Positions 40,511-54,295 of a stretch of DNA of 64,000 nt are shown here, piece after piece. A program made the position numbers and the translations under genes. Source of the stretch: Nonomuraea sp. NBC_00507. Its GTDB lineage: Bacteria > Actinomycetota > Actinomycetes > Streptosporangiales > Streptosporangiaceae. The DNA lies in contig NZ_CP107853.1 of assembly GCF_036013525.1 (NCBI RefSeq), positions 10,106,001 to 10,170,000 on the forward strand, read 5' to 3'. The notes under the pieces are model-generated. The model saw only the letters and a program-made list of their open reading frames with translations. It searched no databases and was not told the origin of the DNA. Within the stretch, counting starts at the first letter, position 1; each line of letters starts with the position of its first letter.

Positions 40511-41302
40511 TCATCGACCATCATGCGGCGGGCTTAGATTCTCGCGGAGGAACTGCAAGGTGGACTGATGCAGCCGGGTGCGGTGGGGCACGGTGGACCA
40601 GCCGTGGTCGGCGCCCTCGACGACTTCCAGCTCCGCGTTGCCGCCGTAGTGATCGAGGTAGCGACGGGCGTAGGAGACAGGGGCGATGTCGTCCTTGTCG
40701 CCGTGGATGATGCGCACGGGCCCGGCATACGCACAGGACCGGCCGTAGACGTCGAGGTTAGCGATGTCGTCGACCAGGGCCGGGCTCATCCGGTGGCTGT
40801 CGGCGTCGAAGTATCCCTTCTCCCCGATCTCCGCCGCGATGTCACGGCCCTTGAGGTGGCCGGAGCCCACTTCGAAGGGGGCGACAGCGGCCGGCGACCA
40901 CAGGCAGACGGCGCGGATGCCCGGCTCCTCTGCGGCCACGATGCCGGCGACGACGCCGCCCATGCTCATCCCGACCAGGCCGATGCGGTCGGGAGCGACG
41001 AAGTCGAAGGAGCGCACGGCCCGCACGACGGACCGGGTTTCGGCGATCTCGCCGATGATGGTGACGTCGAAGAAGTCGCCGTCGCTCTCCCCGTGCCCGG
41101 ACAGGTCGAACCGGACCGATGCGATGCCGGCCGCCTCCAGCATCCGCGACATCAGGACGAACGAGCGGTTCTCCATCCGGTTGTTGGAGAACCCATGGAC
41201 GAACACCACCGTCGGCAGGCCAATGGCACCCCGTTCCTCGGGAATGTGCAGCGTGGAGCGCAGAATCCGCCCGTTGTGCTCGAAGTCTTGATTCCTGATC
41301 AC
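40511..41302 (-). CDS. Alpha/beta hydrolase (esterase) of the rhamnoside operon
   Basis: 263 residues from GTG 41302, overlapping the GH78 stop (GTGA). The oxyanion region is PTVVFVHGFSNNRMENR, the nucleophile elbow GLVGMSMGGVVAG, the Asp region IIHGDKDDIAPVSYA and the His EGADHGWSTV. FDLSGHGESDGDFFDV is typical of small cytoplasmic esterases. No signal peptide is present. As last gene of the rhamnoside operon it probably removes acyl groups (acetyl or feruloyl type) from imported oligosaccharide or glycoside. The large open frame around it is mostly antisense or shadow of the GH78 gene. Confidence 0.88.
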   Translation of the reverse strand: MIRNQDFEHNGRILRSTLHIPEERGAIGLPTVVFVHGFSNNRMENRSFVLMSRMLEAAGIASVRFDLSGHGESDGDFFDVTIIGEIAETRSVVRAVRSFDFVAPDRIGLVGMSMGGVVAGIVAAEEPGIRAVCLWSPAAVAPFEVGSGHLKGRDIAAEIGEKGYFDADSHRMSPALVDDIANLDVYGRSCAYAGPVRIIHGDKDDIAPVSYARRYLDHYGGNAELEVVEGADHGWSTVPHRTRLHQSTLQFLRENLSPPHDGR

Positions 41303-43890
41303 AGAGCCGCCTTTCCTGGCACGCACTGGAAGACATGGCGTCCCGCCCCGACCTCGATGGCGTTGTCCGGGTCGGTGGGCAGATGGACGGCGGCGGTGGT
41401 GTTCGCGGGCAACACCACCACGAGCGTCACCTGATCGCCGGTTCGTTTCCAGCTGACCTCGGCCCTGCCGTACGGGGTGTCGAGACTCGCGCCGGCGTGG
41501 GTGAGGCCGCCGCCGGGGCGAGGACGGATGACGAACCGGCGGTAACCCGGAGCCGCCGGGGCCAGGCCGGCGATGGTGCGGTGCATCCAGTCGGCGACGG
41601 CGCCGAACGCGTAGTGGTTGAAGGAGGTCATCTCGCCCGGGTTGACCGTGCCGTCGGGCAGCATGCTGTCCCAGCGTTCCCAGATCGTGGTGGCGCCCAT
41701 GGTGACCGCGTACAGCCAGGACGGGCACTCGGTCTGTAGGAGCAGCCGGTAGGCGTCCTCGACGGCCCCGGCGTCGGTGAGCGCGTCGCAGATGAGCGGC
41801 GTGCCGACGAAGCCGGTGCCGATGCGGTGACCGTTCGCCCGCACCAGCTCCACCAGCCGCTCCCCCGCGTGTGCGCGACGTTCTGCGCCGTCGAGGAGCC
41901 CGAAGCGCAGGGCGAGGGCGTAGGCCGTCTGGGAGTCGCTGCTCACTTTGCCGTCGCACGTCGCGTACACGGTGTCGAAGGCGGCCCGGACCCGCTCGGT
42001 CAGCTCGCGGTAACGGGCGGCGTCGCCGGTGCGGCCGAGCAGCGTGGCCGTCTCGGCGACCAGCCCGGCCGAGTGGACCAGGTAGGCGGTGGCGACCAGA
42101 GCCGGGTCGGTCTGCGCCTCGGAGGGCCGTTCGGGTGGGGCGGTCGGGTCGAGCCAGTCGCCGAGCTGCGGCCCGGTGTCCCACAGGAAACTCTCGCCGG
42201 CCAGGCCGGCGATCTGGTCCACCCAGGCACTCATGCTCGGGTACTGCTCGCGCAGCAGCTCGAGGTCGCCGGTGCGCTGGTAGAGGGTCCAGGGCACGAC
42301 GACCGCCGCGTCGCCCCACGCAGCTGTCGGCAGCACGTCGGGGACGGGCTCGAGCGCGATCCAGGGCACGAAGACGGGGACGGTGCCGTGGCGGCGGTGC
42401 TCGGCGGAGAGGTCGGCGAGCCAGGACTTCAGCGGACCGGCGCAGTCGTACAGGAAGGACGCTGTGGGGGCGAAGACCTGGATGTCGCCGGTCCAGCCGA
42501 GCCGCTCGTCGCGCTGGGGGCAGTCGGTGGGCAAGTCGACGTAGTTGCCGCGCATGCTCCAGCGGACGTTGTCGTGCAGGCGGCTGAGCAGCGGATCGGA
42601 ACAGTCGAAGTCGCCGATAGGCCGCATGTCGGTGTGGCAGACGACCGCCACGACGTCGCCGTGCCGGAGGTCTCCTGGCCATCCGTCGATCTGCGCGTAG
42701 CGGAAGCCGTGGACCGTGAAGCGCGGCTCCCAGGTCTCGGGCTCGGCGTCGCCGCGCAGGATGTAGCGGTCGTGGGCGGCGGCATGGCGCAGCGGTCGTA
42801 GTGCCAGGGCGCCATTGTCCAGGACTTCGGCATGACGCAGCGAGACGGTGTGCCCGGCCGGGCCCTGGACGCGGATGCGCAGCCGTCCGGCGATGTTCTG
42901 CCCGAAGTCCAGAATGGTCTCGCCGTTCGGGCCGGTGAGGACGCCGATCGGGTGAAGGACTTCGGTACGGCGTACGGGCGGCCCGGTCGGGGCGACCAGA
43001 AGGGCCGTATCGTGGTGGAGGACCTCGGCGGGCAACCAGGTGGAGGCGTCGAAGCCGGGCTCCGACCAGCCGTCGGGAAGCAGGCGGGCGTCGTGGGTCT
43101 CGCCGTCGTAGAGGCTCGCGGCCGTGACCGGGCCCGGTGCGCAGCGCCAGGCACTGTCGGTGGCGACCGTGTCCGTCGTGCCGTCGAGGTAGGTGATCTC
43201 CAGCTGGGCGATCAGCGAGGTGCGGTCGCCGTAGATGCCGGATCTGCCGCCGGCGAAGCCGATGCGGCCGCGGTACCAGCCGTCGGCGAGGGTGGCGCCG
43301 ATCGTGTTGGGGCCCTCGCGCAGCAGGGCGGTGACGTCGTGGGTACGGTAACGCAGGCGGTGGTGATAGCTGGTCCACCCGGGGGCGAGCACGTCGTCGC
43401 CGACGACCCGGCCGTTGATCTCGGCCTCGTACGTGCCGTGCGCGGTGACGTACAGGCGAGCGCGCTCGACCGGCCCGCGAAGGGTGAAGTCGCGGCGCAG
43501 CAGCGGCGCCGGGCCGTCGGAATCGGCGAGCAGGTCCCACGGCGGCGCCGCCGCCCTCGCCTGCCAGTCGGCCGGGTCGAGCAGCCCCGCCTCCACGTAT
43601 GACCAGGGGCTCCACCCGCTGGCCGAGCCGTCGGCGCCGTGCACGCGCACCCGCACGCCACGCCGCTCGCGCGAGCCCAGCGGTTCGCCCGGCCACGGGA
43701 CGAGGACCGACTCCCCCGACTCGACGAAGCCGGTGGAGGTGCCGTCGCTGAGCTCGATCTCGTACGCCTGCTGCAGCCAGCCGGGGATGTCGGTCTGGAT
43801 GATCCAAGACAGGCGCGGGGCATGCTCGCCGATGCCGAGAGGGTCTCGATGATGGTCGAAGGTGACCGGTTCGACGTTCAGGAAGGTCAT
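41299..43890 (-). CDS. GH78 alpha-L-rhamnosidase, cytoplasmic
   Basis: 863 residues, no signal peptide. The N-terminal Ig/beta-sandwich domains (PRLSWIIQTD, DEVLAPGW-like DDVLAPGWTSYHHRLRY) precede the (alpha/alpha)6 barrel. The signature DCPQRDERLGWTGD (456-469) contains the acidic residues of the active site, probably D456, D461 and E462. SFNHYAFGAVADWMHRTIAGL is the usual late motif, followed by a C-terminal jelly roll. It starts 1 bp after the permease stop and overlaps the esterase start. It would cleave terminal alpha-L-rhamnose from imported oligosaccharide. Confidence 0.93.
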   Translation of the reverse strand: MTFLNVEPVTFDHHRDPLGIGEHAPRLSWIIQTDIPGWLQQAYEIELSDGTSTGFVESGESVLVPWPGEPLGSRERRGVRVRVHGADGSASGWSPWSYVEAGLLDPADWQARAAAPPWDLLADSDGPAPLLRRDFTLRGPVERARLYVTAHGTYEAEINGRVVGDDVLAPGWTSYHHRLRYRTHDVTALLREGPNTIGATLADGWYRGRIGFAGGRSGIYGDRTSLIAQLEITYLDGTTDTVATDSAWRCAPGPVTAASLYDGETHDARLLPDGWSEPGFDASTWLPAEVLHHDTALLVAPTGPPVRRTEVLHPIGVLTGPNGETILDFGQNIAGRLRIRVQGPAGHTVSLRHAEVLDNGALALRPLRHAAAHDRYILRGDAEPETWEPRFTVHGFRYAQIDGWPGDLRHGDVVAVVCHTDMRPIGDFDCSDPLLSRLHDNVRWSMRGNYVDLPTDCPQRDERLGWTGDIQVFAPTASFLYDCAGPLKSWLADLSAEHRRHGTVPVFVPWIALEPVPDVLPTAAWGDAAVVVPWTLYQRTGDLELLREQYPSMSAWVDQIAGLAGESFLWDTGPQLGDWLDPTAPPERPSEAQTDPALVATAYLVHSAGLVAETATLLGRTGDAARYRELTERVRAAFDTVYATCDGKVSSDSQTAYALALRFGLLDGAERRAHAGERLVELVRANGHRIGTGFVGTPLICDALTDAGAVEDAYRLLLQTECPSWLYAVTMGATTIWERWDSMLPDGTVNPGEMTSFNHYAFGAVADWMHRTIAGLAPAAPGYRRFVIRPRPGGGLTHAGASLDTPYGRAEVSWKRTGDQVTLVVVLPANTTAAVHLPTDPDNAIEVGAGRHVFQCVPGKAAL

Positions 43891-43891
43891 G

Positions 43892-44719
43892 TCATCCCTT
43901 GATGGCGCCGGCGGTCATGCCGGCGACGATCTTGCGGTTGAAGAAGACGAAGGCCAGCAGCGGGGGAATCGTGATCAGGACGATGTCCATGAACAGCAGG
44001 TTCCATTGGGTGCTGTACTGGCTCTGGAAGTTGTAGAGGGTGACCTGCACGGTGGCGTTGTCGTCGCCGGGCAGGAAGTACAGCGGGTTGACGAAGTCGT
44101 TGAAGACGGCCACGGACGTGGTCAGGATGACCGTGATGGTGACCGGCCGCAGCAGGGGGAAGATCACCCGGAAGAACAGGGCGAGCCCCGTGCAGCCGTC
44201 GATCTGGGCGGCCTCGTCCAGTTCATGCGGGATGGCCGCGATGAAGGCGCGGAACAGCAGCACCGCGTACGACAGGCCGAAGGCGACCTCGACCAGGATC
44301 AGTCCGGGCAGGGTCTTGAACAGGCCGAGCCCTTGCAGCAGCCAGATCGTGGGCACGATCGCGGGCGGGATGATCAGCCCGGACAGCACCAGGAAGTTGG
44401 CCAGCGACCCGATCTTCCCGGCCCGGCGCTGCAGCACGAACGCGGCCATCGCGGCGAAGATCACGATCAGCGCGACCGACGCGACGGTGAGGACGGTGGA
44501 GTTGACGAAGGCGCGCAGCAGCACGTAGTCGCGCGCCTCGACGACCTCGACGAGGTTCTCCACCAGCCGCCACTCGCCCGGCCACCCGAAGTCCAGGTCC
44601 GCGGACTGCGCCTGATCCTTCACCGCGGTCAGCAGCATGAAGGAGAAGGGCACCAGGAAGATCGCGGTGGCCAGGACCAGTGCGACCGTCTCGGCGCTGA
44701 GCTTCTTGAGAGCTCTCAT
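43892..44719 (-). CDS. CUT1 ABC permease, MalG type (rhamnoside locus)
   Basis: 275 residues, ATG overlapping the upstream permease stop (ATGA). The first segment is TVALVLATAIFLVPFSFMLLTAVK. The EAA loop is LDEAAQIDGCTGLALFFRVIFPLLRP, and it ends VAGMTAGAIKG. Six membrane segments. It pairs with the MalF-type partner for uptake of rhamnose-containing sugars (substrate inferred from the GH78 genes). Confidence 0.92.
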   Translation of the reverse strand: MRALKKLSAETVALVLATAIFLVPFSFMLLTAVKDQAQSADLDFGWPGEWRLVENLVEVVEARDYVLLRAFVNSTVLTVASVALIVIFAAMAAFVLQRRAGKIGSLANFLVLSGLIIPPAIVPTIWLLQGLGLFKTLPGLILVEVAFGLSYAVLLFRAFIAAIPHELDEAAQIDGCTGLALFFRVIFPLLRPVTITVILTTSVAVFNDFVNPLYFLPGDDNATVQVTLYNFQSQYSTQWNLLFMDIVLITIPPLLAFVFFNRKIVAGMTAGAIKG

Positions 44720-45651
44720 ACGGCGACCTGCCTCTTGCCGAGGATGTAGTTCAGCGGGACGACGATGGCGGTGACCATGAGGAACAGCAGCACGTTGCCG
44801 GCCGTGGACAGGCCGAAGAAGCCGGCCTGGTACTGCTTGTAGATGATCGAGGCGATGGTGTCGCTGGTGAAGCCGGGCCCGCCGCGGGTCATCGTCCAGA
44901 TCAGGTCGAACGAGCGCAGCCCGCCGATGAAGGAGAGGATGATCACGGAGTAGGTGGCCGGCCAGCTCAGCGGCAGCGTGACGTGCCGGAAGCGGTGCCA
45001 GGCGCTGCCCCCGTCGACCGCGACCGCCTGGTAGTAGTCACGGGGAATCGACATGATCCCCGCGATGTAGATGACGGTGGCCAGGCCGACGCCCTTCCAC
45101 ACGTCCACCATCGCCACCGACAGCAGGGCAGAGTTGGCGTCGCCCAGCCAGTCCGGGCCGTCGATGCCGACCAGGGCGAGGGCCTTGTTGACCAGGCCGG
45201 TGTCCGGTCGCAGCAGCGCGCTGAAGGTGATGCCGACCGCGACCGTGCTCACCAGCACGGGGAAGAACACCACCGAGCGTAGGAAGCCGCGCAGCCGCAG
45301 CCGCGAGGTGAGCAGCACGCCCAGCAGCAGCCCGAGGACGACCTTCAGCCCGCTCGTGACCACGGCGTAGACGATGGTGTTCTGGAAGCCGATGCGCAGG
45401 TTCTGCTCCGCGAGGAAGTCCCGGAAGTTCTGGAGTCCGACGAAGGTGCTGTCGAACAACGTCCAGCGAGTGAGCGCGAAGTAGAAGGCCATGGCCGTCG
45501 GCACCAGGAAGATCACCAGGTAGACGACGGCGGCCGGCAGGTACAGCGCATAGGGGTAGGCCGACTTTCGCCTGGCCACCGGGCGGGCGTGCCGCTGTGC
45601 GGGCGGCGCGCCGGGCCCCGTGCGGGGCCCGGCTTGGTGCTTGGTCACCAC
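44716..45651 (-). CDS. CUT1 ABC permease, MalF type (rhamnoside locus)
   Basis: 311 residues from GTG 45651, which overlaps the lipoprotein stop by 7 bp. The basic N-terminus encodes GPRTGPGAPP, whose DNA forms a 9-bp hairpin. The first membrane segment is YALYLPAAVVYLVIFLVPTAMAFYF. The EAA-like loop is YQAVAVDGGSAWHRFRHVTLPLSWP, and TRGGPGFTSDTIASIIYKQ is the usual late loop. The EAA motif is degenerate (QAV). Confidence 0.92.
   Translation of the reverse strand: MVTKHQAGPRTGPGAPPAQRHARPVARRKSAYPYALYLPAAVVYLVIFLVPTAMAFYFALTRWTLFDSTFVGLQNFRDFLAEQNLRIGFQNTIVYAVVTSGLKVVLGLLLGVLLTSRLRLRGFLRSVVFFPVLVSTVAVGITFSALLRPDTGLVNKALALVGIDGPDWLGDANSALLSVAMVDVWKGVGLATVIYIAGIMSIPRDYYQAVAVDGGSAWHRFRHVTLPLSWPATYSVIILSFIGGLRSFDLIWTMTRGGPGFTSDTIASIIYKQYQAGFFGLSTAGNVLLFLMVTAIVVPLNYILGKRQVAV
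45611..45632 (-). promoter_or_regulatory. Perfect hairpin at lipoprotein/permease junction
   Basis: CCGGGCCCC (45611-45619), a 4-base loop and GGGGCCCGG (45624-45632). It lies inside codons 7-14 of the permease and just past the lipoprotein stop. It could act as an mRNA stabiliser or attenuator that keeps lipoprotein expression above permease expression, as intercistronic hairpins do in other sugar ABC operons. That role is inference. Confidence 0.45.
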
Positions 45652-46946
45652 CCTGCCAGGCCCAACTGCTTGGCCTGCTTCTCCACGTCCTTGTCGTACT
45701 GCGCGGCACCCTCGGCGGGCGGCGTCAGCCCGGAGCCGACCGCGACGGTGATCTGTTCCAGCGACGGGCCCTTGATGGGCGACAGGAACTCCAGCGCCGG
45801 CGCCGTAGCACCCTTGTCGATGTAGCCCTGCAGGTCCTTGGCCACCTGGATGGCGTCCTCAGGCAGCTTGGACCCCTTGATGCGATACGGCCCCGACGGC
45901 CGCACCGCCGCGGTCACGGCCTCCGTACCTGCCGGCGAGGCGACGAAGGCGAGGAACTTCTTGGCCGCTTCCAGGTGTTCGGTGGTCTTGGCGATGTAGA
46001 TGGCGGGGGGCTCCCAGACGGTGGCGCCGCTTTTGGCCGGGTCGGTGCCGGGGACGCCGAAGAAGCCGACGTCAGTGGCCGTCTGCGGGTTAGTGGCCAG
46101 AAGCGGCGGCAGCAGCGCGCTGAGCATCGCGTAGTGTGCGCCCTTGCCCTCGACCAGCATCTTCAGGCCCTGATCGAGGGTGGCCGAGCCGAAGCCCTTG
46201 TTGAGGTAATCCTTGGCGTGCACATCGGCGAGGTGCTGGAACCCGCCCTGCGCGGCGGGCGTGGTGGCGTACTTCGCCTTGCCCGCCGTGTAGTCCTGGG
46301 CGAAGGTCGGTGCCGCCGCCTGGACGTTGTAGTAGTCGGCGAGCACGAAGATCTGCGACGTCCACGTGTCCTTGAACGTGCTGATCACGGGGGTGATCCC
46401 GGCCGCCTTGATCTTGTCGTTGTTGGCCATGAACTCGGCCCACGTCTTGGGGATCTCCAGGCCCAGCTGGTCGTAGACCTTGCGGTTGTACAGGATGCCG
46501 CCGCCGGCGAGCGTCGTGGCGGGAACGCCGTACACCTTGCCGCCTTGCGTGACCACGGGCAGGTAGTCGGTCTGGACGTTGGCGAGGACGGGGTCATTGC
46601 TGAGATCGACGAGGGTCTGGGTGGGGTTGAGCGCCTGCAGCAATGAGCCCGAGTTGTACCAGAACACGTCCGTCATCTCGCCGGTGGACAGGCGGGTCTT
46701 GACGATGTTGTCGCCCTCGCTGCCGCCCGGCTGATGCTCCATCTCGATCTTGATGGTGGGGTTGGCCTTCATGAACGCGTTCGCCAGCGCCCTGGACGTG
46801 TCCACGGTCGACTGGTCGCTGCCCGTCATGAAGGAGAGGGTGACGGTGCCGTCAGCAGCGGGCTCCGAACCGGAGCCGCAGGAGGTCAGGGCCGCCATCG
46901 CGAGCACGGCCACGGCCGTCGCAAGCGTGCGGTGGGAGGTCTTCAC
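45645..46946 (-). CDS. CUT1 ABC sugar-binding lipoprotein (rhamnoside locus)
   Basis: 433 residues from GTG 46946 with GGAGGGG upstream. The lipobox is LTSC with Cys23. The mature fold begins TVTLSFMTGSDQSTVDTSRALANAFMKANPTIKIEM, with VYGVPATTLAGGGILYNRKVYDQLGLEIPKTWAEF in the hinge-proximal region. It is the first gene of a five-gene, tightly overlapping operon (lipoprotein, two permeases, GH78, esterase). The promoter at 46965-47050 has well-formed -35/-10 and several operators and matches the one at 50.7 kb. Confidence 0.92.
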   Translation of the reverse strand: MKTSHRTLATAVAVLAMAALTSCGSGSEPAADGTVTLSFMTGSDQSTVDTSRALANAFMKANPTIKIEMEHQPGGSEGDNIVKTRLSTGEMTDVFWYNSGSLLQALNPTQTLVDLSNDPVLANVQTDYLPVVTQGGKVYGVPATTLAGGGILYNRKVYDQLGLEIPKTWAEFMANNDKIKAAGITPVISTFKDTWTSQIFVLADYYNVQAAAPTFAQDYTAGKAKYATTPAAQGGFQHLADVHAKDYLNKGFGSATLDQGLKMLVEGKGAHYAMLSALLPPLLATNPQTATDVGFFGVPGTDPAKSGATVWEPPAIYIAKTTEHLEAAKKFLAFVASPAGTEAVTAAVRPSGPYRIKGSKLPEDAIQVAKDLQGYIDKGATAPALEFLSPIKGPSLEQITVAVGSGLTPPAEGAAQYDKDVEKQAKQLGLAGW

Positions 46947-46964
46947 ACACCCCTCCAGGGTTTA

Positions 46965-47050
46965 TTGAATCGTTTTAAGCGACTCCCCGATGCGGTTAAC
47001 GTAGGCGTTACGTGGAGGAGTGTCAAGACACATTTTGGGTAACGGTTCCC
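46965..47050 (-). promoter_or_regulatory. Promoter and operators of the rhamnoside operon
   Basis: Minus-strand order: box GGGAACCGTTACCC (47050-47037), 10 bp, -35 TTGACA (47026-47021), 17 bp, -10 TACGTT (47003-46998), 19 bp, operator TTAAAACGATTCAA (46978-46965), then 8 bp, GGAGG and GTG. The -10 region lies in GTAACGCCTACGTTAAC. A further site, GGAGAAACGTTACCT (about 47105-47091), lies upstream. The elements and spacings are nearly the same as at 50711-50808. Confidence 0.75.
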
Positions 47051-47124
47051 ATCCTTTTCCCAGGCCAGATCGCTGATATCGCGATTTTTTAGGTAACGTT
47101 TCTCCAGCTTCGCAAAGGAACGGC

Positions 47125-47155
47125 GCGCCGGGCCAGCACCCTGGTGGCCCGGCGC
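47125..47155 (-). terminator. Hairpin downstream of ADH gene
   Basis: GCGCCGGGCCA (47125-47135) pairs perfectly with TGGCCCGGCGC (47145-47155) over 11 bp, about 70 bp after the ADH stop. Confidence 0.6.
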
Positions 47156-47222
47156 TCGGCCATGGCCTCGCAGCCTGCGGCCCTGCCTTCACTCATCGGC
47201 GAGTCCTGGGTGCGCGCCCGGG

Positions 47223-48245
47223 TTACGGGCGCAGGAGCACCTTGATGGCGCGGCGTTCGTCCATGGCCTTGTAACCCTCGGCGGCCTCGTCGAGGGGCAG
47301 CTCAAGGTCGAAGACCTTGCCGGGGTCGATCTGACGGTTCGAGATGAGGTCGATGAGCTCCGGCAGGTACTGACGGACCGGGGCTGGGCCGCCGTGCAGG
47401 TGCACGTGGGAGAAGAACAGCTCCTCGCCGGGCAGTTCGACGCCGTGCGCGACGCCCACATAGCCGACATGCCCGCCGCCCCGGGTCGAGCGGATGGCCT
47501 GCATCATCGACTCCTGGGTGCCGACCGCCTCGACGACCGAGTGCGCGCCCAGGCCGCCGGTGAGCTCCTTGATCATCCTTACGCCCTCGTCACCGCGCTC
47601 GGTGACGATGTCGGTCGCGCCGAACTCGCGGGCGAGCTTCTGCCTCGGCTCGTGGCGGCTCATCGCGATGATCCGCTCCGCGCCGAGCTGCTTGGCGGCC
47701 AGCACCGCGAGCAGGCCGACCGCGCCGTCGCCGACCACCGCGACCGTCTTGCCGGGACCGGCCTGCGCGGCTACGGCACCGAACCAGCCGGTGCCCAGCA
47801 CGTCCGATGCGGCCAGGAAACTCGGGATCAGATCGTCGGAGGGGATATCCGGCGTGGCCACGAGCGTGCCGTCGGCGAGCGGGACGCGCAGCAGCTCCGC
47901 CTGGGCCCCGCCCGCGGTCGCGAACTCGCGATTGACGCAGGAGGTCTGGTAGCCGGTCCGGCAGATCTCGCAGGTGTTGTCCGAGGCGAAGAAGGACCCG
48001 ATCACGAACTGGCCGGGCTTGATCGTCTTCACCGCACCGCCGACCTCCTCGACGATGCCCACGTACTCGTGGCCCATCGGGGACGGCCCGTCCACGGCGT
48101 CGATCCCGCGATACGGCCACAGGTCCGACCCGCAGATACAGGTCGCGGGCAGGCGGATGATCGCATCGGACGGAGCGATGATCTTCGGGTCCTGGCGCTC
48201 TTCCACCCGGACGTCACCGGGGGCGTGCATCACGGCACCACGCAT
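47223..48245 (-). CDS. Zinc-dependent medium-chain alcohol dehydrogenase
   Basis: 340 residues. The catalytic zinc site is C38 in CICGSD with H59-E60 in GHEYVG. The structural zinc lobe has C92, C95 and C103, but the first ligand position is D89 instead of Cys. The Rossmann motif GDGAVG is at 172-177. It closely resembles actinobacterial Zn-alcohol dehydrogenases induced with XRE regulators. It is NAD(P)-dependent; the substrate is not defined. Divergent from an XRE/MmyB regulator, so redox or aldehyde stress control is likely. Confidence 0.92.
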   Translation of the reverse strand: MRGAVMHAPGDVRVEERQDPKIIAPSDAIIRLPATCICGSDLWPYRGIDAVDGPSPMGHEYVGIVEEVGGAVKTIKPGQFVIGSFFASDNTCEICRTGYQTSCVNREFATAGGAQAELLRVPLADGTLVATPDIPSDDLIPSFLAASDVLGTGWFGAVAAQAGPGKTVAVVGDGAVGLLAVLAAKQLGAERIIAMSRHEPRQKLAREFGATDIVTERGDEGVRMIKELTGGLGAHSVVEAVGTQESMMQAIRSTRGGGHVGYVGVAHGVELPGEELFFSHVHLHGGPAPVRQYLPELIDLISNRQIDPGKVFDLELPLDEAAEGYKAMDERRAIKVLLRP

Positions 48246-48391
48246 GATGGTTCTCCTTGCTGGATGAGATCTGGTTGATGGCTGTACACAACGACCCAGG
48301 AAACACCAACCACCCTTGACCAGGGAGTTCTTGATAAAAGGTGTACTGGCAGGGCACCCCTCCCGCCCGAAGGGCCGCCTAGCCTAAGAGG

Positions 48392-49288
48392 ATGGACAAC
48401 CGCAGCGAGATCCGTGAGTTCCTGACCTCACGCCGCGCCAAGATCAGCCCGCAGCAGGCCGGGCTTCCGTCCTACGGCATCCGCCGGGTGCCGGGCCTGC
48501 GCCGCGCCGAGGTCGCCCAACTGGCCGGGGTCAGCGTGGAGTACTACTCCCGCCTGGAACGCGGCGACCTGTCCGGGGTCTCCGACAATGTCCTCGACGC
48601 CCTGGCCCGCGCGCTGCGGCTCAACGACGAAGAACGCACCCACCTGGAGCACCTGGCCCGCGCCGCCGGACCCGCCCCGCGCCGCCGGCACCGCCCCGCC
48701 CCCTGCACCGTGCGGCCCAACGTGCAGCGGCTCCTGGACGCCATGACCGGCGCGCCCGCGTTCGTCCTGAACGGCCGCTGCGACCTTCTGGCCACCAACG
48801 CCCTCAGCCGCGCCCTGTTCGCTCCCATGATCGGCTCCGCACATGGCGCCACACCCAACTTCGGCCGGTTCACCTTCCTCGATCCCCAATCCCGCCTGTT
48901 CTGGGGCGACTGGGAACGCGCCGCCGACGAAACCGTCGCCCTCCTGCACGCCCAGGCCGGCCGCGACCCGTACGACAAAGACCTCACCGACCTGGTCGGC
49001 GAACTGTCCACCCGCAGCGACGACTTCCGCACCCGCTGGGCCCGCCACGACGTCCGCCAGCACCACCAGGGCGCCAAGCCCCTCCACCACCCCGTCGTCG
49101 GCGACCTCCACCTCACCTATGAATCCCTCGAACTGGCCGCCGACAACCTCCGCCTGGTCGCCTACGGCGCCGAACCCGGCAGCGACTCTGCAGACAAACT
49201 CCGCCTTCTGGCCAGCTGGGCCGCCTCCGACACCAGCGATCTCCAGCCTCACGAAGCCCCGGGCCGCCGACCGGCAGACCAGGCCTGA
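48392..49288 (+). CDS. XRE-family regulator with MmyB-like ligand-binding domain
   Basis: 298 residues. The N-terminal HTH reads [41 protein letters not shown]. The C-terminal MmyB-like PAS domain includes PAFVLNGRCDLLATNALSRALF, NFGRFTFLDPQSRLFWGDWERAA and LHHPVVGDLHLTYESLELA. This architecture typically controls an adjacent divergently transcribed oxidoreductase gene, here the ADH. AAGAGG lies directly before the ATG, so translation may be nearly leaderless. Confidence 0.9.
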   Translation: MDNRSEIREFLTSRRAKISPQQAGLPSYGIRRVPGLRRAEVAQLAGVSVEYYSRLERGDLSGVSDNVLDALARALRLNDEERTHLEHLARAAGPAPRRRHRPAPCTVRPNVQRLLDAMTGAPAFVLNGRCDLLATNALSRALFAPMIGSAHGATPNFGRFTFLDPQSRLFWGDWERAADETVALLHAQAGRDPYDKDLTDLVGELSTRSDDFRTRWARHDVRQHHQGAKPLHHPVVGDLHLTYESLELAADNLRLVAYGAEPGSDSADKLRLLASWAASDTSDLQPHEAPGRRPADQA

Positions 49289-49435
49289 CCATCCCCCAGC
49301 CGCACCATCTCCGGCTATCCGGCACCGGTGACCCTGACCCGGCGGCACCAGCCGGCGTCTCAGCGAAGCGCCACGGCTATCGCGACTCCGCGCGCCCCGA
49401 ATCCCGCCGCTCCAGACGGCGCGCCACCCGTTCGG

Positions 49436-50488
49436 CTACGGCTTCGGAGCATTCACCGAGCCCCCAGGCGGGGCCGTGGAAGTGCGGGCGACCAGGCTCG
49501 GGGTGACGGAGAAGCGCACGGGCGTCATGCGGCCCTCGATGCGTTCCAGCAGGAGCTTGCCCGCGGCGCGGCCCATCTCGGCGCCTTCCTGGTCAACGCT
49601 GGTCAGCGCGATGTTCGGCAGAGCGGCCAGGTGAGTGTTGTCGTAACCGGCGACTGAGACGTCCGCCGGGACGGACAGGCCGGCCTCGTGGAGCGCGGCG
49701 AGCGCGCCGAGCGCTGCCTGGTCAGCCCCCGCGAAGATCGCCGTCGGGCGGGAGGAACGGCTCAGCAGCTCACGGGCTCCCTCGTAGCCGCCTTTCTCGT
49801 GATAGAAGCTGGTGGCGATGGCGATCTCGTCGCCGAACCCGTGCTCGCGCATGACGCGTTCGTAGGTCGCCGACCGGATGTTGTGCAGCAGGTCGGCCGG
49901 CCTAGCCTGGCTGTCGTCCTGGTGCGTGATGTGCGCGATCCGGCGGTGCCCCAGCGCGATGAGGTGCTGCACGACGAGTTCGGCGCCCGCCTCGTCGTCA
50001 TCGAACACCGAGTCGTAGTACGACGACCGCTCGTGCCGTGCCAGCACCACGGTGGGCTTTTCCTTCGCCACCTCTTCCAGCCGCGGCTTCGAAGCGAGCG
50101 GGGCGACCATGATGATGCCGTCCACCTGGCGGTCCATGAGGGCGTCGACCGCCCGCCTCTCGACCTTGCGGGTGGCGCCTCCTTGGATCATGAACGCCTG
50201 GTAGTCGGTGTTCTCGAGATACTCGGTGAGGCCGTCGAGAATGTCGGCGAAGAACGGGTTCCTGATGTGCGGCAACACCAGCCCGATCGTGAAAGTGCGC
50301 CCCCGCATCCCCCGGGCGACGGCCTGCGGCCGATAGCCGAGCTCCTCGATGGCCGTCTTGACCCGGTCCTTCATGGCCGGGCTCACGCCGTAGGCGTTGC
50401 GGATCACCTTGGACACCGCCGTGACGGAGACCTGAGCATGGCTCGCCACATCGGCGATCGTCACTCGTCGTCGACCAGGCGCGGCCAT
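49436..50488 (-). CDS. LacI-family regulator, probable controller of rhamnoside genes
   Basis: 350 residues. The HTH reads RVTIADVASHAQVSVTAVSKVIRNAYGVS. The hinge is QAVARGMRGRTFTIGLVLP. The effector domain has RNPFFADILDGLTEYLENTDYQAF, VDGIIMVAPLASKPRLEEV and VSVAGYDNTHLAALPNIALTSVDQ. It lies between the two rhamnosidase loci. Operator-like sites of the same kind as in both rhamnoside promoters occur in its own upstream region (AAAACGTTTT at 50558-50567 and GGGTATCGTTACCC at 50657-50670), so it probably represses itself and both loci. Confidence 0.92.
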   Translation of the reverse strand: MAAPGRRRVTIADVASHAQVSVTAVSKVIRNAYGVSPAMKDRVKTAIEELGYRPQAVARGMRGRTFTIGLVLPHIRNPFFADILDGLTEYLENTDYQAFMIQGGATRKVERRAVDALMDRQVDGIIMVAPLASKPRLEEVAKEKPTVVLARHERSSYYDSVFDDDEAGAELVVQHLIALGHRRIAHITHQDDSQARPADLLHNIRSATYERVMREHGFGDEIAIATSFYHEKGGYEGARELLSRSSRPTAIFAGADQAALGALAALHEAGLSVPADVSVAGYDNTHLAALPNIALTSVDQEGAEMGRAAGKLLLERIEGRMTPVRFSVTPSLVARTSTAPPGGSVNAPKP

Positions 50489-50557
50489 GAAACTCCATTT
50501 CCCGAGACGTGTACCGATTCTACGAGCTCAGGGCATCGCTCAGCTTGGGCGCTTGAG

Positions 50558-50567
50558 AAAACGTTTT
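50558..50567. promoter_or_regulatory. Operator-like palindrome upstream of LacI gene
   Basis: AAAACGTTTT, perfect. On the LacI coding strand it reads CTTAAAACGTTTTC, sharing CTTAAAACG with the operator at the rhamnoside operon start. Confidence 0.6.
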
Positions 50568-50656
50568 AAGAGCCTACGTTCGCAGGCCGGTCCGACCACC
50601 CATGGCCGCGCCCTAGCCGTCCTCCTGTTCGCCGTGGTCAAGAGCTTGATCGGAAC

Positions 50657-50670
50657 GGGTATCGTTACCC
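50657..50670. promoter_or_regulatory. GGGTATCGTTACCC operator-like site
   Basis: Imperfect palindrome of the same class as GGGAACCGTTACCC at 47037-47050, between the LacI start and the 50.7-kb promoter. Confidence 0.55.
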
Positions 50671-50710
50671 ATTTATGTTGTGCTGCATCTCTTATACATC
50701 GGTCAATACC

Positions 50711-50808
50711 GGGAACCGTTGCTCGAGATGCCTCTTGACGCCGGACTGGGTTACGCCTACGTTAACGACAACGATGCGATCTTAAATCGATTTACCCCCT
50801 CGCGGAGG
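50711..50808 (+). promoter_or_regulatory. Promoter module copy upstream of secreted rhamnosidase
   Basis: Plus-strand order: box GGGAACCGTTGCTC (50711-50724), 10 bp, -35 TTGACG (50735-50740), 17 bp, -10 TACGTT (50758-50763), 18 bp, operator TTAAATCGATTTAC (50782-50795), 8 bp, GGAGG (50804-50808), then an ATG. The -10 region lies in GTTACGCCTACGTTAAC, 16 of 17 bases identical to the rhamnoside operon promoter. Strong internal agreement in order and spacing supports a shared regulator. Confidence 0.75.
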
Positions 50809-50811
50809 CGC

Positions 50812-50889
50812 ATGGTGCGAGCCTTCCGTCACCCCCATCGCCCTGAACTGGTCGTTCCCCGCGGCCCACCCGACCGCACAGGGGTATAA
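50812..50889 (+). CDS. Possible 25-residue leader ORF
   Basis: ATG with GGAGG 3 bp upstream, at the place where the homologous promoter at 47 kb has the lipoprotein start. It encodes MVRAFRHPHRPELVVPRGPP followed by DRTGV and a stop. Arg and Pro are frequent. It could be a true leader peptide controlling the GH78 gene, or the stub of a gene replaced after promoter duplication. No homolog recognised. Confidence 0.35.
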   Translation: MVRAFRHPHRPELVVPRGPPDRTGV

Positions 50890-51070: not shown

Positions 51071-54000
51071 GTGTCGAAATCACGTCGTCGGATCCGCATG
51101 CTCGCGGGACTGGGGGTTTCCTTAGCCCTCGCTCTCTCGCAGCCCTTCGGCGCTCCACCGGCCGTCGCCGCCGGCGCGGTATCGCCCGTCCACGTCGTCG
51201 ACCTCAACGTTGACGGCCGGTACGACGAATCTCTCGGCATCGACAACCTCACCCCCTCACTCGGGTGGCGGATGCAAGAGACACGACAAGCCGCCGCCCA
51301 CCCGTGCCACCGGCCGCTCTCGCGGGCGGCGTGTCCCGGCGACGCGCAGACCGCGTACCAGGTCCAGGCCGCGACAAGCGAGGAGAACCTCAAGCGCGGC
51401 CGGCTGATCTGGGACTCCGGCAAGGTGAACTCCCCCGTCCAGTCCGGCGTCCGCTATGCCGGCCAAGCGTTGGGTTCACGTCAGAAGATCATCTGGCACG
51501 TCCGGGTCTGGGACGCCGACAAGAAGCCGTCGGACTGGAGCAAGCCCTCCTCATGGGAGATGGGCCTGCTGCAGCAGAGCGATTGGGGCGCGGCGCGCTG
51601 GATCGAGTACCCGGGCCGCACCGAAACGCAGCCCATGCCGATCTTCGCCCGTCAGTTCGACGTCGACCGCGGCAAGCGCGTGGCCGGCGCCCGTCTCTAC
51701 CTCTCCGGCGTGGGCCTGCACCTGCCGACCTTGAACGGTCGCAAGCTCAGCGACGAAGTCCTCGCGCCCGGCTACTCCAACTACCAGCTCTCCAGTGAGT
51801 ACCGCACCTACGACATCACCGACGACCTGCGCGCCGGGGCCAACACCCTCGGTGTACGGCTCGGCAACGGCCCTGCTTACGTGCGGCGCAGCGTCACCAA
51901 CCCGGCCGTGGGCCGCACGGCGCCGTACTCATGGTGGCAGAGCCAGCTGAAAGGCAGCGGCTCCCTGGCCGCCGGGGCCGAGGCCGGCGCCACGACCGTG
52001 AAACTCGACAATGTCGCCAACTACCACATCGGCGGCACCATCAACATCGACACCGGCAACGGCGGCGACAACCTCGAATCGCGCACCATCACCGCGATCG
52101 GCACCGCAGGCGTTGACGGAACAGGGATCACCTTCACGCCGGGGCTGGCCAAGGCGCACTCCACCGGCGCGACGGTGACCGGCTCGGGCAACAACATCGC
52201 CGCCAGCGACCCGAGCGCCGGCGCCGCGGTCGCTCCCCGCATGATCGCGCGGCTGGAGATCGCCTACAGCAACGGCTCGACGGACGTCATCGTCTCCGAC
52301 CGCAGCTGGCGCTCCGCCCTCGGCGCCCTCGTCACCGACGCTTGGTACTCCGGCTCCGACTATGACGCACGGCGCGAGCAAGTCGGCTGGGACCTGCCAG
52401 GCTCCGACCTGTCAGCCACCGCCAAGCGACGCGACGGCTCGGACATGTCGTGGGTGGACGCGGGAATAGCGCCGCCCCCGAATCTCGCCACCAAACTCGT
52501 GGCCCGGACGGCCGAGCCGGTCAAGGCCGTCGAAACGTTCACGGCGGTCTCGATGACCAACCCGACCCCGGGCACCTGGGTGTTCGACCTCGGCCAGAAC
52601 ATCAGCGGATGGCCACAGCTGAACCTCAAGGGCACTGTGCCCGGCGGAGTCACCATCCGGATGGCACCCGCCGAGTCTCTCGCCCCCGACGGAACCGTCG
52701 ACCAGGCCTCTCTCATGGGAGGAGGCGGCAACCGGGGGCGCGACCTGTTCAACACCTACACCACGGCCGGTCTGCGCGGCGGAGAGACTTGGCACCCCGA
52801 CTTCACCTACTTCGGCATGCAGTGGATCCAGGTCACCGGCCTTCCGGAGGGCTACACCCCCACGAAGGACCTGATCAAGGGCATCCGGCTGCAGGTCGCC
52901 ACCCCCGTGGCAGGTGAGGTCACCACTTCCAACGCACGCGTCAACCGCATCCACAAGATGGCCCGCTACTCCTTCGCGTCGAACATGATGTCGGTCTTCA
53001 CCGACTGTCCCGGCCGCGAGAAGCTGTCGTACCCGGCCGACTACACGATGCCGATGGGAGCCATCCACCGCAATTACGAACTCGCCGCCTACCTGCGGAC
53101 CACGATGCGGCACCTCGTCGAGGGACAGTCGATTGCCGACACCCCCATGCGCGGAAACGTGGCGCTGAAGACGCCGGTCTACGACTGGGGCTACAGCGGA
53201 CGCTTCGGCGACGAGATCAACTGGGGCAACGCCATCATTTTGGTCCCGGCGATGCTCTACGAGCTCTACGGCGACACCGAGACGATGACGCGGTACTACG
53301 ACCAGATGGTCGACTTCGCCGACTACATCCAGCGACAGAAGGCGGGGACGGGCGAGAACGCGCACATTGTCGACGCCGCCCTCGCCGACTGGGTCGCGGC
53401 CGACCAGACCTCAGGCCGGATCACCGGCACCTGGGGCTACTACATCATGATCACGAAGCTGGCCAGGATGGCCGAGCTCACGGGTCACGCCGACGACGCC
53501 GCCCGCTACCAGACCCTCGCCGGTGACATCAAGAACGCCTTCAACGCCCACTTCTACAACCAGGAGCTGCGCCGCTACACCAGCACGGGCAACGCCGGGA
53601 CCGCCGGCGCCACCCAGACGGCTCAGGCGCTCGCGCTCGACGCCGGGCTCGTCCCCGACAGCGAACGCCTGGCTGTCCTCGACGCGCTCGTCGAGCTTGT
53701 CTACGCTTTCCACCCCAACGGCGAGGGCCCGCACTTCAGTGGCGGCACCATCGGCATGGCCCCGACGGTCCGGGCCCTTGCCGACGGCGGCAGGGACGAT
53801 GTCCTGTGGGACCTGCTGCAGGCTGATGACCAGCCGAGTTACGGGTTCTTCATGCAGCCCACCACCGCCAATCCGGGCGGCATGACCACGATCGGCGAGC
53901 AGTGGAACCGTGGAGCCTCGAAGAACCACATGATCCTGGCGCAGATCGAGGAGTGGTTCCACACCGGGCTGGCGGGCATCCGCGAGGCCGATGACTCCAC

Positions 54001-54295
54001 CGCCTACCGGCGCCTCGTCATCCAGCCCAAGCCGGTCGGCGACCTCACCTCCGTAAAGGGCAGCTACGAGACGCCGCACGGTAGCGTGCGGTCCGCATGG
54101 ACCAAGGGAGGAGACCGGTTCAAGCTGACGGTCGAGGTGCCGGCGAACACCGCCGCCGAAGTCTGGGTGCCGGCGAAAGAACAACGCCTCGTCGCAGCGC
54201 CGCACCGAGCGACGTTCCTCCGGATGGACCGAGACCACGCCGTCTACAGAGTCGCCTCCGGCTCCTTCACGTTCGTGGCGGCAATGGCAAGCTGA
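51071..54295 (+). CDS. Secreted multi-domain GH78 alpha-L-rhamnosidase
   Basis: 1074 residues from GTG 51071 with GGGAAGGGAG upstream. The Sec signal ends about residue 34 (PPAVAAG). An Ig-like domain (VDGRYDESLGIDNLTPSLGWRM) and GH78 N-terminal sandwich are followed by an (alpha/alpha)6 barrel with DCPGREKLSYPADY (from D645; catalytic acid probably E650 or a neighbour) and GMTTIGEQWNRGASKNH. An extra beta-rich block at about residues 295-387 interrupts the N-terminal sandwich. It would strip rhamnose from pectin-type rhamnogalacturonan or glycosides outside the cell, feeding the 41-47 kb importer. A strong hairpin follows. Confidence 0.9.
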   Translation: MSKSRRRIRMLAGLGVSLALALSQPFGAPPAVAAGAVSPVHVVDLNVDGRYDESLGIDNLTPSLGWRMQETRQAAAHPCHRPLSRAACPGDAQTAYQVQAATSEENLKRGRLIWDSGKVNSPVQSGVRYAGQALGSRQKIIWHVRVWDADKKPSDWSKPSSWEMGLLQQSDWGAARWIEYPGRTETQPMPIFARQFDVDRGKRVAGARLYLSGVGLHLPTLNGRKLSDEVLAPGYSNYQLSSEYRTYDITDDLRAGANTLGVRLGNGPAYVRRSVTNPAVGRTAPYSWWQSQLKGSGSLAAGAEAGATTVKLDNVANYHIGGTINIDTGNGGDNLESRTITAIGTAGVDGTGITFTPGLAKAHSTGATVTGSGNNIAASDPSAGAAVAPRMIARLEIAYSNGSTDVIVSDRSWRSALGALVTDAWYSGSDYDARREQVGWDLPGSDLSATAKRRDGSDMSWVDAGIAPPPNLATKLVARTAEPVKAVETFTAVSMTNPTPGTWVFDLGQNISGWPQLNLKGTVPGGVTIRMAPAESLAPDGTVDQASLMGGGGNRGRDLFNTYTTAGLRGGETWHPDFTYFGMQWIQVTGLPEGYTPTKDLIKGIRLQVATPVAGEVTTSNARVNRIHKMARYSFASNMMSVFTDCPGREKLSYPADYTMPMGAIHRNYELAAYLRTTMRHLVEGQSIADTPMRGNVALKTPVYDWGYSGRFGDEINWGNAIILVPAMLYELYGDTETMTRYYDQMVDFADYIQRQKAGTGENAHIVDAALADWVAADQTSGRITGTWGYYIMITKLARMAELTGHADDAARYQTLAGDIKNAFNAHFYNQELRRYTSTGNAGTAGATQTAQALALDAGLVPDSERLAVLDALVELVYAFHPNGEGPHFSGGTIGMAPTVRALADGGRDDVLWDLLQADDQPSYGFFMQPTTANPGGMTTIGEQWNRGASKNHMILAQIEEWFHTGLAGIREADDSTAYRRLVIQPKPVGDLTSVKGSYETPHGSVRSAWTKGGDRFKLTVEVPANTAAEVWVPAKEQRLVAAPHRATFLRMDRDHAVYRVASGSFTFVAAMAS

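Follow-up and report, generated by a model that had tools for sequence, protein, structure and literature searches.

The locus studied here raises the question of whether two promoters of similar build, one ahead of a sugar importer operon and one ahead of a gene for a secreted alpha-L-rhamnosidase, belong to a single regulon, and, if so, which regulator reads which of their parts. The window, meaning the whole stretch of 64,000 nucleotides that was analysed, covers 10.106-10.170 Mb of its contig in a genome of 12.9 Mb. According to Pfam, a minus-strand operon in the window encodes a sugar ABC importer together with an alpha-L-rhamnosidase and a hydrolase, and the plus-strand gene encodes another alpha-L-rhamnosidase; from this gene context we infer rhamnose-containing sugars as the importer's cargo. 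The genes concerned are:

40511..46946, minus strand: importer operon (Pfam; taken as a single operon from the gene spacing)
45645-46946, minus strand: solute-binding protein (Pfam)
44716-45651 and 43892-44719, minus strand: permeases (Pfam)
41299-43890, minus strand: alpha-L-rhamnosidase (Pfam)
40511-41320, minus strand: alpha/beta hydrolase (Pfam; ORF boundaries set by us)
49436..50488, minus strand: local LacI-family regulator, recognition helix VSVTAVSKV (PF00356, Peripla_BP_3)
51071..54295, plus strand: secreted alpha-L-rhamnosidase of 1074 aa (Pfam; secretion judged by eye from the N-terminus)

The local regulator combines a LacI helix-turn-helix domain (PF00356, 54.3 bits against a cut-off of 27) with a periplasmic-binding-like sensor domain (PF13377, 129.1 bits against a cut-off of 26.5), and its named relatives come from 16 loci, 14 of them in Nonomuraea and one each in Actinomadura and Microtetraspora, pointing to Nonomuraea as the source genus. 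A second LacI/importer/rhamnosidase cluster with the same promoter architecture lies about 0.4 Mb away (L108, C1:10562000-10579000); its LacI is 68% and its permeases are 86-88% identical to those of the window cluster.

Two promoters with the same ordered parts

Read directly on the minus strand, the importer promoter runs GGGAACCGTTACCC, 10 bp, TTGACA, 17 bp, TACGTT, 19 bp, TTAAAACGATTCA, GGAGG and GTG, and the rhamnosidase promoter on the plus strand runs GGGAACCGTTGCTC, 10 bp, TTGACG, 17 bp, TACGTT, 18 bp, TTAAATCGATTTA, GGAGG and ATG. The order of parts given by an earlier, sequence-only reading (box, -35, -10, operator, Shine-Dalgarno) is thus present in both, and the interval from box to GTTAAC, which it had put at 56 bp twice, is indeed 56 bp in both and aligns without gaps. 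Further upstream, at a distance of 54 bp, each promoter has another box that this reading lacked, and the gap from operator to GGAGG, previously given as 8 bp, comes to 9 bp in both promoters when recounted from a 13-base operator. In both, the box centres lie 94 and 40 bp before TACGTT and the operator centre 31-32 bp after its start.

47090..47105, minus strand: distal box of the importer promoter, GGAGAAACGTTACCTA, candidate local-LacI site, centre 54 bp from the proximal-box centre
47036..47051, minus strand: proximal box of the importer promoter, TGGGAACCGTTACCCA, candidate local-LacI site
47021..47026, minus strand: putative -35 TTGACA of the importer promoter (match to consensus only)
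46995..47011, minus strand: conserved 17-bp -10 segment of the importer promoter, GTAACGCCTACGTTAAC, including -10 TACGTT at 46998-47003
46965..46978, minus strand: downstream operator of the importer promoter, TTAAAACGATTCAA, candidate RhaR site
46950..46956, minus strand: Shine-Dalgarno GGAGGGG ahead of GTG 46946 of the importer operon (sequence)
50557..50569, minus strand: operator-like TTAAAACGTTTTC 5' of the lacI gene (sequence), also present in locus L081
50656..50671, plus strand: distal box of the rhamnosidase promoter, CGGGTATCGTTACCCA, candidate local-LacI site
50710..50725, plus strand: proximal box of the rhamnosidase promoter, CGGGAACCGTTGCTCG, candidate local-LacI site
50735..50740, plus strand: putative -35 TTGACG of the rhamnosidase promoter (match to consensus only)
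50750..50766, plus strand: conserved 17-bp -10 segment of the rhamnosidase promoter, GTTACGCCTACGTTAAC, including -10 TACGTT at 50758-50763
50782..50795, plus strand: downstream operator of the rhamnosidase promoter, TTAAATCGATTTAC, candidate RhaR site
50804..50808, plus strand: GGAGG ahead of a short ORF in the rhamnosidase promoter (sequence)
50812..50889, plus strand: 25-codon ORF between the downstream operator and the rhamnosidase start (compared among relatives)

The plus-strand start codon had been placed directly behind GGAGG, a point that needs correction: ATG 50812 opens the 25-codon ORF, and the listed rhamnosidase ORF starts at GTG 51071. L081 keeps the frame of this short ORF open, as does L080 when judged by eye, whereas in L090 and L094 only a short distance separates the operator from the start of the rhamnosidase. 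The ORF is possibly a leader peptide, or a product of chance.

The 56-bp cores of the two promoters are identical at 41 of 56 positions without gaps (local score 37), a score reached by none of 5000 dinucleotide shuffles (maximum 31), none of 3410 other window segments (maximum 22) and none of 549 lower-GC segments from 20 loci of the same genome (maximum 32), and these three controls rule out chance likeness. Within one mismatch, GTWACGCCTACGTTAAC occurs at four sites in the genome, namely both promoters and two places just 5' of paralogous LacI genes.

Among relatives, a pattern of -10 and operator was found in 27 of the 54 genus genomes, and a slightly widened version in 37 of the 345 genomes of the order (none for the reversed control), which by our count from the order table are 29 of the 54 Nonomuraea genomes and eight outside the genus. 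All 29 fall among the 32 genus genomes that encode a LacI of at least 60% identity, three of the 32 (G025, G033, G060) do not have the pattern, and it occurs in none of the 22 without such a LacI, an association that is partly built in because most such promoters adjoin a lacI gene. A version of the promoter particular to the secreted rhamnosidase is also conserved. Eleven such loci were read, in one of which (L092) the gene sits inside an operon; the other ten all have the proximal box and -10 segment (L091 by eye), nine have the operator (all save L091) and nine a good distal box (all save L084). At L087:2609-2900, a rhamnosidase-type promoter and a signal-like start directly follow lacI, and tblastn found no rhamnosidase behind them, which suggests a remnant or a replacement. 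In the comparison of relatives' loci that the sequence-only reading had proposed, the parts of both promoters are kept in other Nonomuraea and in a few other genera.

The claim that conserved elements stand in diverged filler survives in part. Filler has indeed diverged when the two promoters are compared, and part of the -35/-10 spacer is likewise poorly conserved (0.28 bits at -17 to -9), but the stretch from -10 to operator, GCATCGGGG, is itself conserved among importer promoters. The column analysis (37 non-redundant of 49 promoters) also shows the -10 segment conserved well past the hexamer, with a mean of 1.3 bits at -8 to -1. The strength of the TTGAC and TACG columns is partly built in because the search patterns contained these letters, the positions of box and operator being free within wide ranges. 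Of 60 promoters surveyed, 59 were used, the remaining one having no proximal box with a score of 12, and promoters of close relatives are not independent of one another.

Paralogous LacI-importer clusters in the genome indicate that duplication did occur, and they would also suit a different origin of the likeness, namely recent duplication of one promoter with its elements under no selection. We regard this as scarcely credible, as each set of relatives retains the elements, whereas part of the spacer lies near background; the pattern's presence beyond the genus, in diverged genomes, already contradicts it.

Upstream boxes and the local LacI-family regulator

Boxes like TGGGTAACGTTACCCA occur within two mismatches at three places in the 12.9 Mb of the genome, all in promoters of this kind; with so few places, we rejected the idea that the box is the site of a genome-wide regulator. 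Within one mismatch, they occur in 24 of the 54 genus genomes, and each of these 24 is one of the 32 that encode a member of the LacI clade (at least 60% identity). CG-centred palindromes are present near the local lacI gene and co-vary with the recognition helix, as seen in a survey of 67 LacI proteins from 77 loci in which the -10 segment was accepted within four mismatches. Where a VT, TT or IT recognition helix is accompanied by the -10 segment, the proximal box is T-type in 32 of 32 cases and the distal box in 28 of 32. In paralogues with a KA helix, proximal and distal box alike resemble GTAGACCGGTCTAC (9/9; a tenth KA protein, L236, is without the -10 segment), although these are not nine independent cases, since the KA change is a single event on the LacI tree. 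The helix-turn-helix pattern of the survey missed at least two clade members, L277 (TT) and L271 (KA), the latter having KA-type boxes in agreement with the nine. Upstream of the more distant TA/RS proteins stands TGGAGAACGTTCTACA or CGTAGAACGTTCTACA, in eight of eight cases, and neither occurs at a TS protein (L275).

These observations suggest that the upstream boxes are candidate sites of the local LacI (49436-50488), the helix swap being the strongest hint. The sections of PMC2978694 drawn on here tie LacI helix residues 15 and 16 by mutual information to operator positions 5 and 4, and in our alignment the VT/TT, KA and TA differences fall at these residues; that analysis covers the TVSR group, whereas the proteins here read AVSK. 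A further inverted repeat, ACGAT/ATCGT, overlaps the proximal box in many TT-type promoters (by eye; L034-L037, L242, L244 and similar). The -10 segment was considered as a third local-LacI site and rejected, because it is nearly constant also in promoters whose boxes have changed.

Could the boxes instead be sites of a third regulator, the local LacI reading the operator alone? Some TT-helix orthologues without boxes nearby would allow this: seven such loci, all without the -10 segment (L032, L033, L238, L239, L241, L248, L250), have no box within two mismatches nearby, and L248 has one box-like site at three. Box type, however, tracks the helix residues, with three different palindromes for the VT/TT/IT, the KA and the TA/RS proteins, and we consider a third regulator very improbable.

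The spacing of the boxes is consistent with assignment to a LacI-family protein. Among 54 pairs with a distal score of 14 or more, 53 have centres 54-57 or 64-67 bp apart and one 48 bp (looser pairs also gave 38, 48 and 75 bp), and the spacing therefore moves in helical steps, as in a looping or cooperative LacI operator pair. These two spacing classes differ by about one helical turn, and there have been at least three switches between them on the LacI tree (37 labelled rows). Outside the genus, six loci gave three clear pairs at 67, 54 and 65 bp and one weak pair at 54 bp, and two showed no clear distal box. From these steps we infer that the pair may be bound on one face of the helix, allowing cooperation or looping.

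The downstream operator and RhaR

The operator, like TTAAAWCGWTTYAA, has a different distribution. It stands ahead of rhaI, at one place, in all 30 loci that were fetched and examined from the rhaI genes of the 54 genomes searched, and five of these loci belong to genomes in which the local LacI clade is absent (G006, G020, G031, G035, G067). Within one mismatch it has six sites in the own genome. Five are at rhamnose-related genes, namely the importer, the rhamnosidase, an importer cluster paralogous to the first, rhaI-rhaD and a gene whose product has rhamnogalacturonan-lyase family 11 domains, and the sixth falls inside a coding region; one or two may be chance, because a reversed control gave 2+2 matches against 6+6. 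A second LacI-family protein, at least 73% identical to that in L141, is encoded in 51 of the 54 genomes (counted from the list). The copy in this genome (C1:6758576-6759571) lies about 5.5 kb from rhaI (C1:6765124-6766278), and rhaI and rhaD pass TIGR02635 and TIGR02632. A LacI-family gene near rhamnose catabolic genes and a palindrome shared before rhaI are thus both present, as in a RhaR regulon. Because of its presence before all 30 rhaI genes, including the five without the local clade, the operator probably belongs to this second protein, RhaR, an assignment made by distribution. The two SPECIFICITIES would then differ in their readers, the distributions suggesting that the boxes go with the local LacI and the operator with rhamnose catabolism.

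The sequence-only reading had implied that the local LacI reads both elements, so that one regulator would bind all three sites of each promoter in the manner of the lac operators. All three sites are CG-centred palindromes of LacI type, and the operator-like TTAAAACGTTTTC that precedes lacI both in L081 and in the window could mean that the local LacI reads the operator. Against this, the half-sites of box and operator differ, and the operator precedes rhaI in all five loci from genomes without this clade. All 32 T-type promoters have the operator, against one of nine KA promoters, and in that one (L243) both boxes have changed with the helix while the operator has not. A single regulator thus seems unlikely, boxes and operator being distributed like sites of two different LacI-family proteins.

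A proposed composite promoter and its known relatives

We therefore consider it fairly likely that both promoters are composite, dual-repressor (AND-type) promoters of an L-rhamnose/rhamnoside system, a reading that draws on the parts, their spacing and conservation, and the separate distribution of boxes and operator. The local LacI would sense an imported rhamnoside and occupy the phased box pair, either cooperatively or by forming a short loop, hindering polymerase from upstream, and RhaR would sense rhamnose or a catabolite and block from the transcribed side, both signals being proposed from gene context. Full expression would need release of both repressors, so that importer and secreted rhamnosidase would rise together, with general rhamnose catabolism but more selectively. 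That importer operon and secreted rhamnosidase form one regulon, as first proposed, is supported by the relatives of both promoters, which keep the same parts. The seven boxless TT-helix loci, L091 without its operator and L084 without its distal box are points against the dual-repressor reading. The wider proposal has, in our view, about an even chance of being right: that in about half of Nonomuraea a helically phased, pathway-specific LacI box pair and a shared RhaR operator form an AND gate, and that paralogous clusters were rewired by joint change of helix and both boxes around a constant core promoter, giving a natural orthogonal operator set.

Firmicutes promoters controlled by a pathway LacI and by CcpA likewise bring together two LacI-family proteins, of which the first is pathway-specific and the second has a wider range; what CcpA conveys is the supply of preferred carbon sources, whereas RhaR here would signal rhamnose itself. 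For Actinomycetales, the sections of PMC3870299 drawn on here predict that a LacI-type RhaR co-regulates rhamnose and oligosaccharide genes, and both systems share a LacI-type regulator of rhamnose catabolic, uptake and oligosaccharide genes with CG-centred palindromes before them, a likeness drawn without comparison of motif letters. There, oligosaccharide genes are placed under RhaR or under a specialised regulator, whereas here both kinds of site occur on one promoter. Multiple phased sites beside an adjacent LacI gene also recall the local LacI regulons of PMC4052901, in which about 20% of operons have more than one site, with spacing peaks at 13, 22 and 32 bp as against 54-57 and 64-67 bp here. 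Among open-access papers on Nonomuraea rhamnosidases, none concerns regulation by its title, and as far as the open-access papers searched go, the architecture appears undescribed.

The assignment of a particular LacI to each site yields specific and cheaply tested predictions on rhamnoside use in a large actinomycete genus. Nature also supplies a series of LacI paralogues, of VT/TT, KA and TA/RS type, each with its own matching operator and two of them on almost the same promoter; on these the LacI recognition code could be tested, as could helical phasing at 54 against 65 bp.
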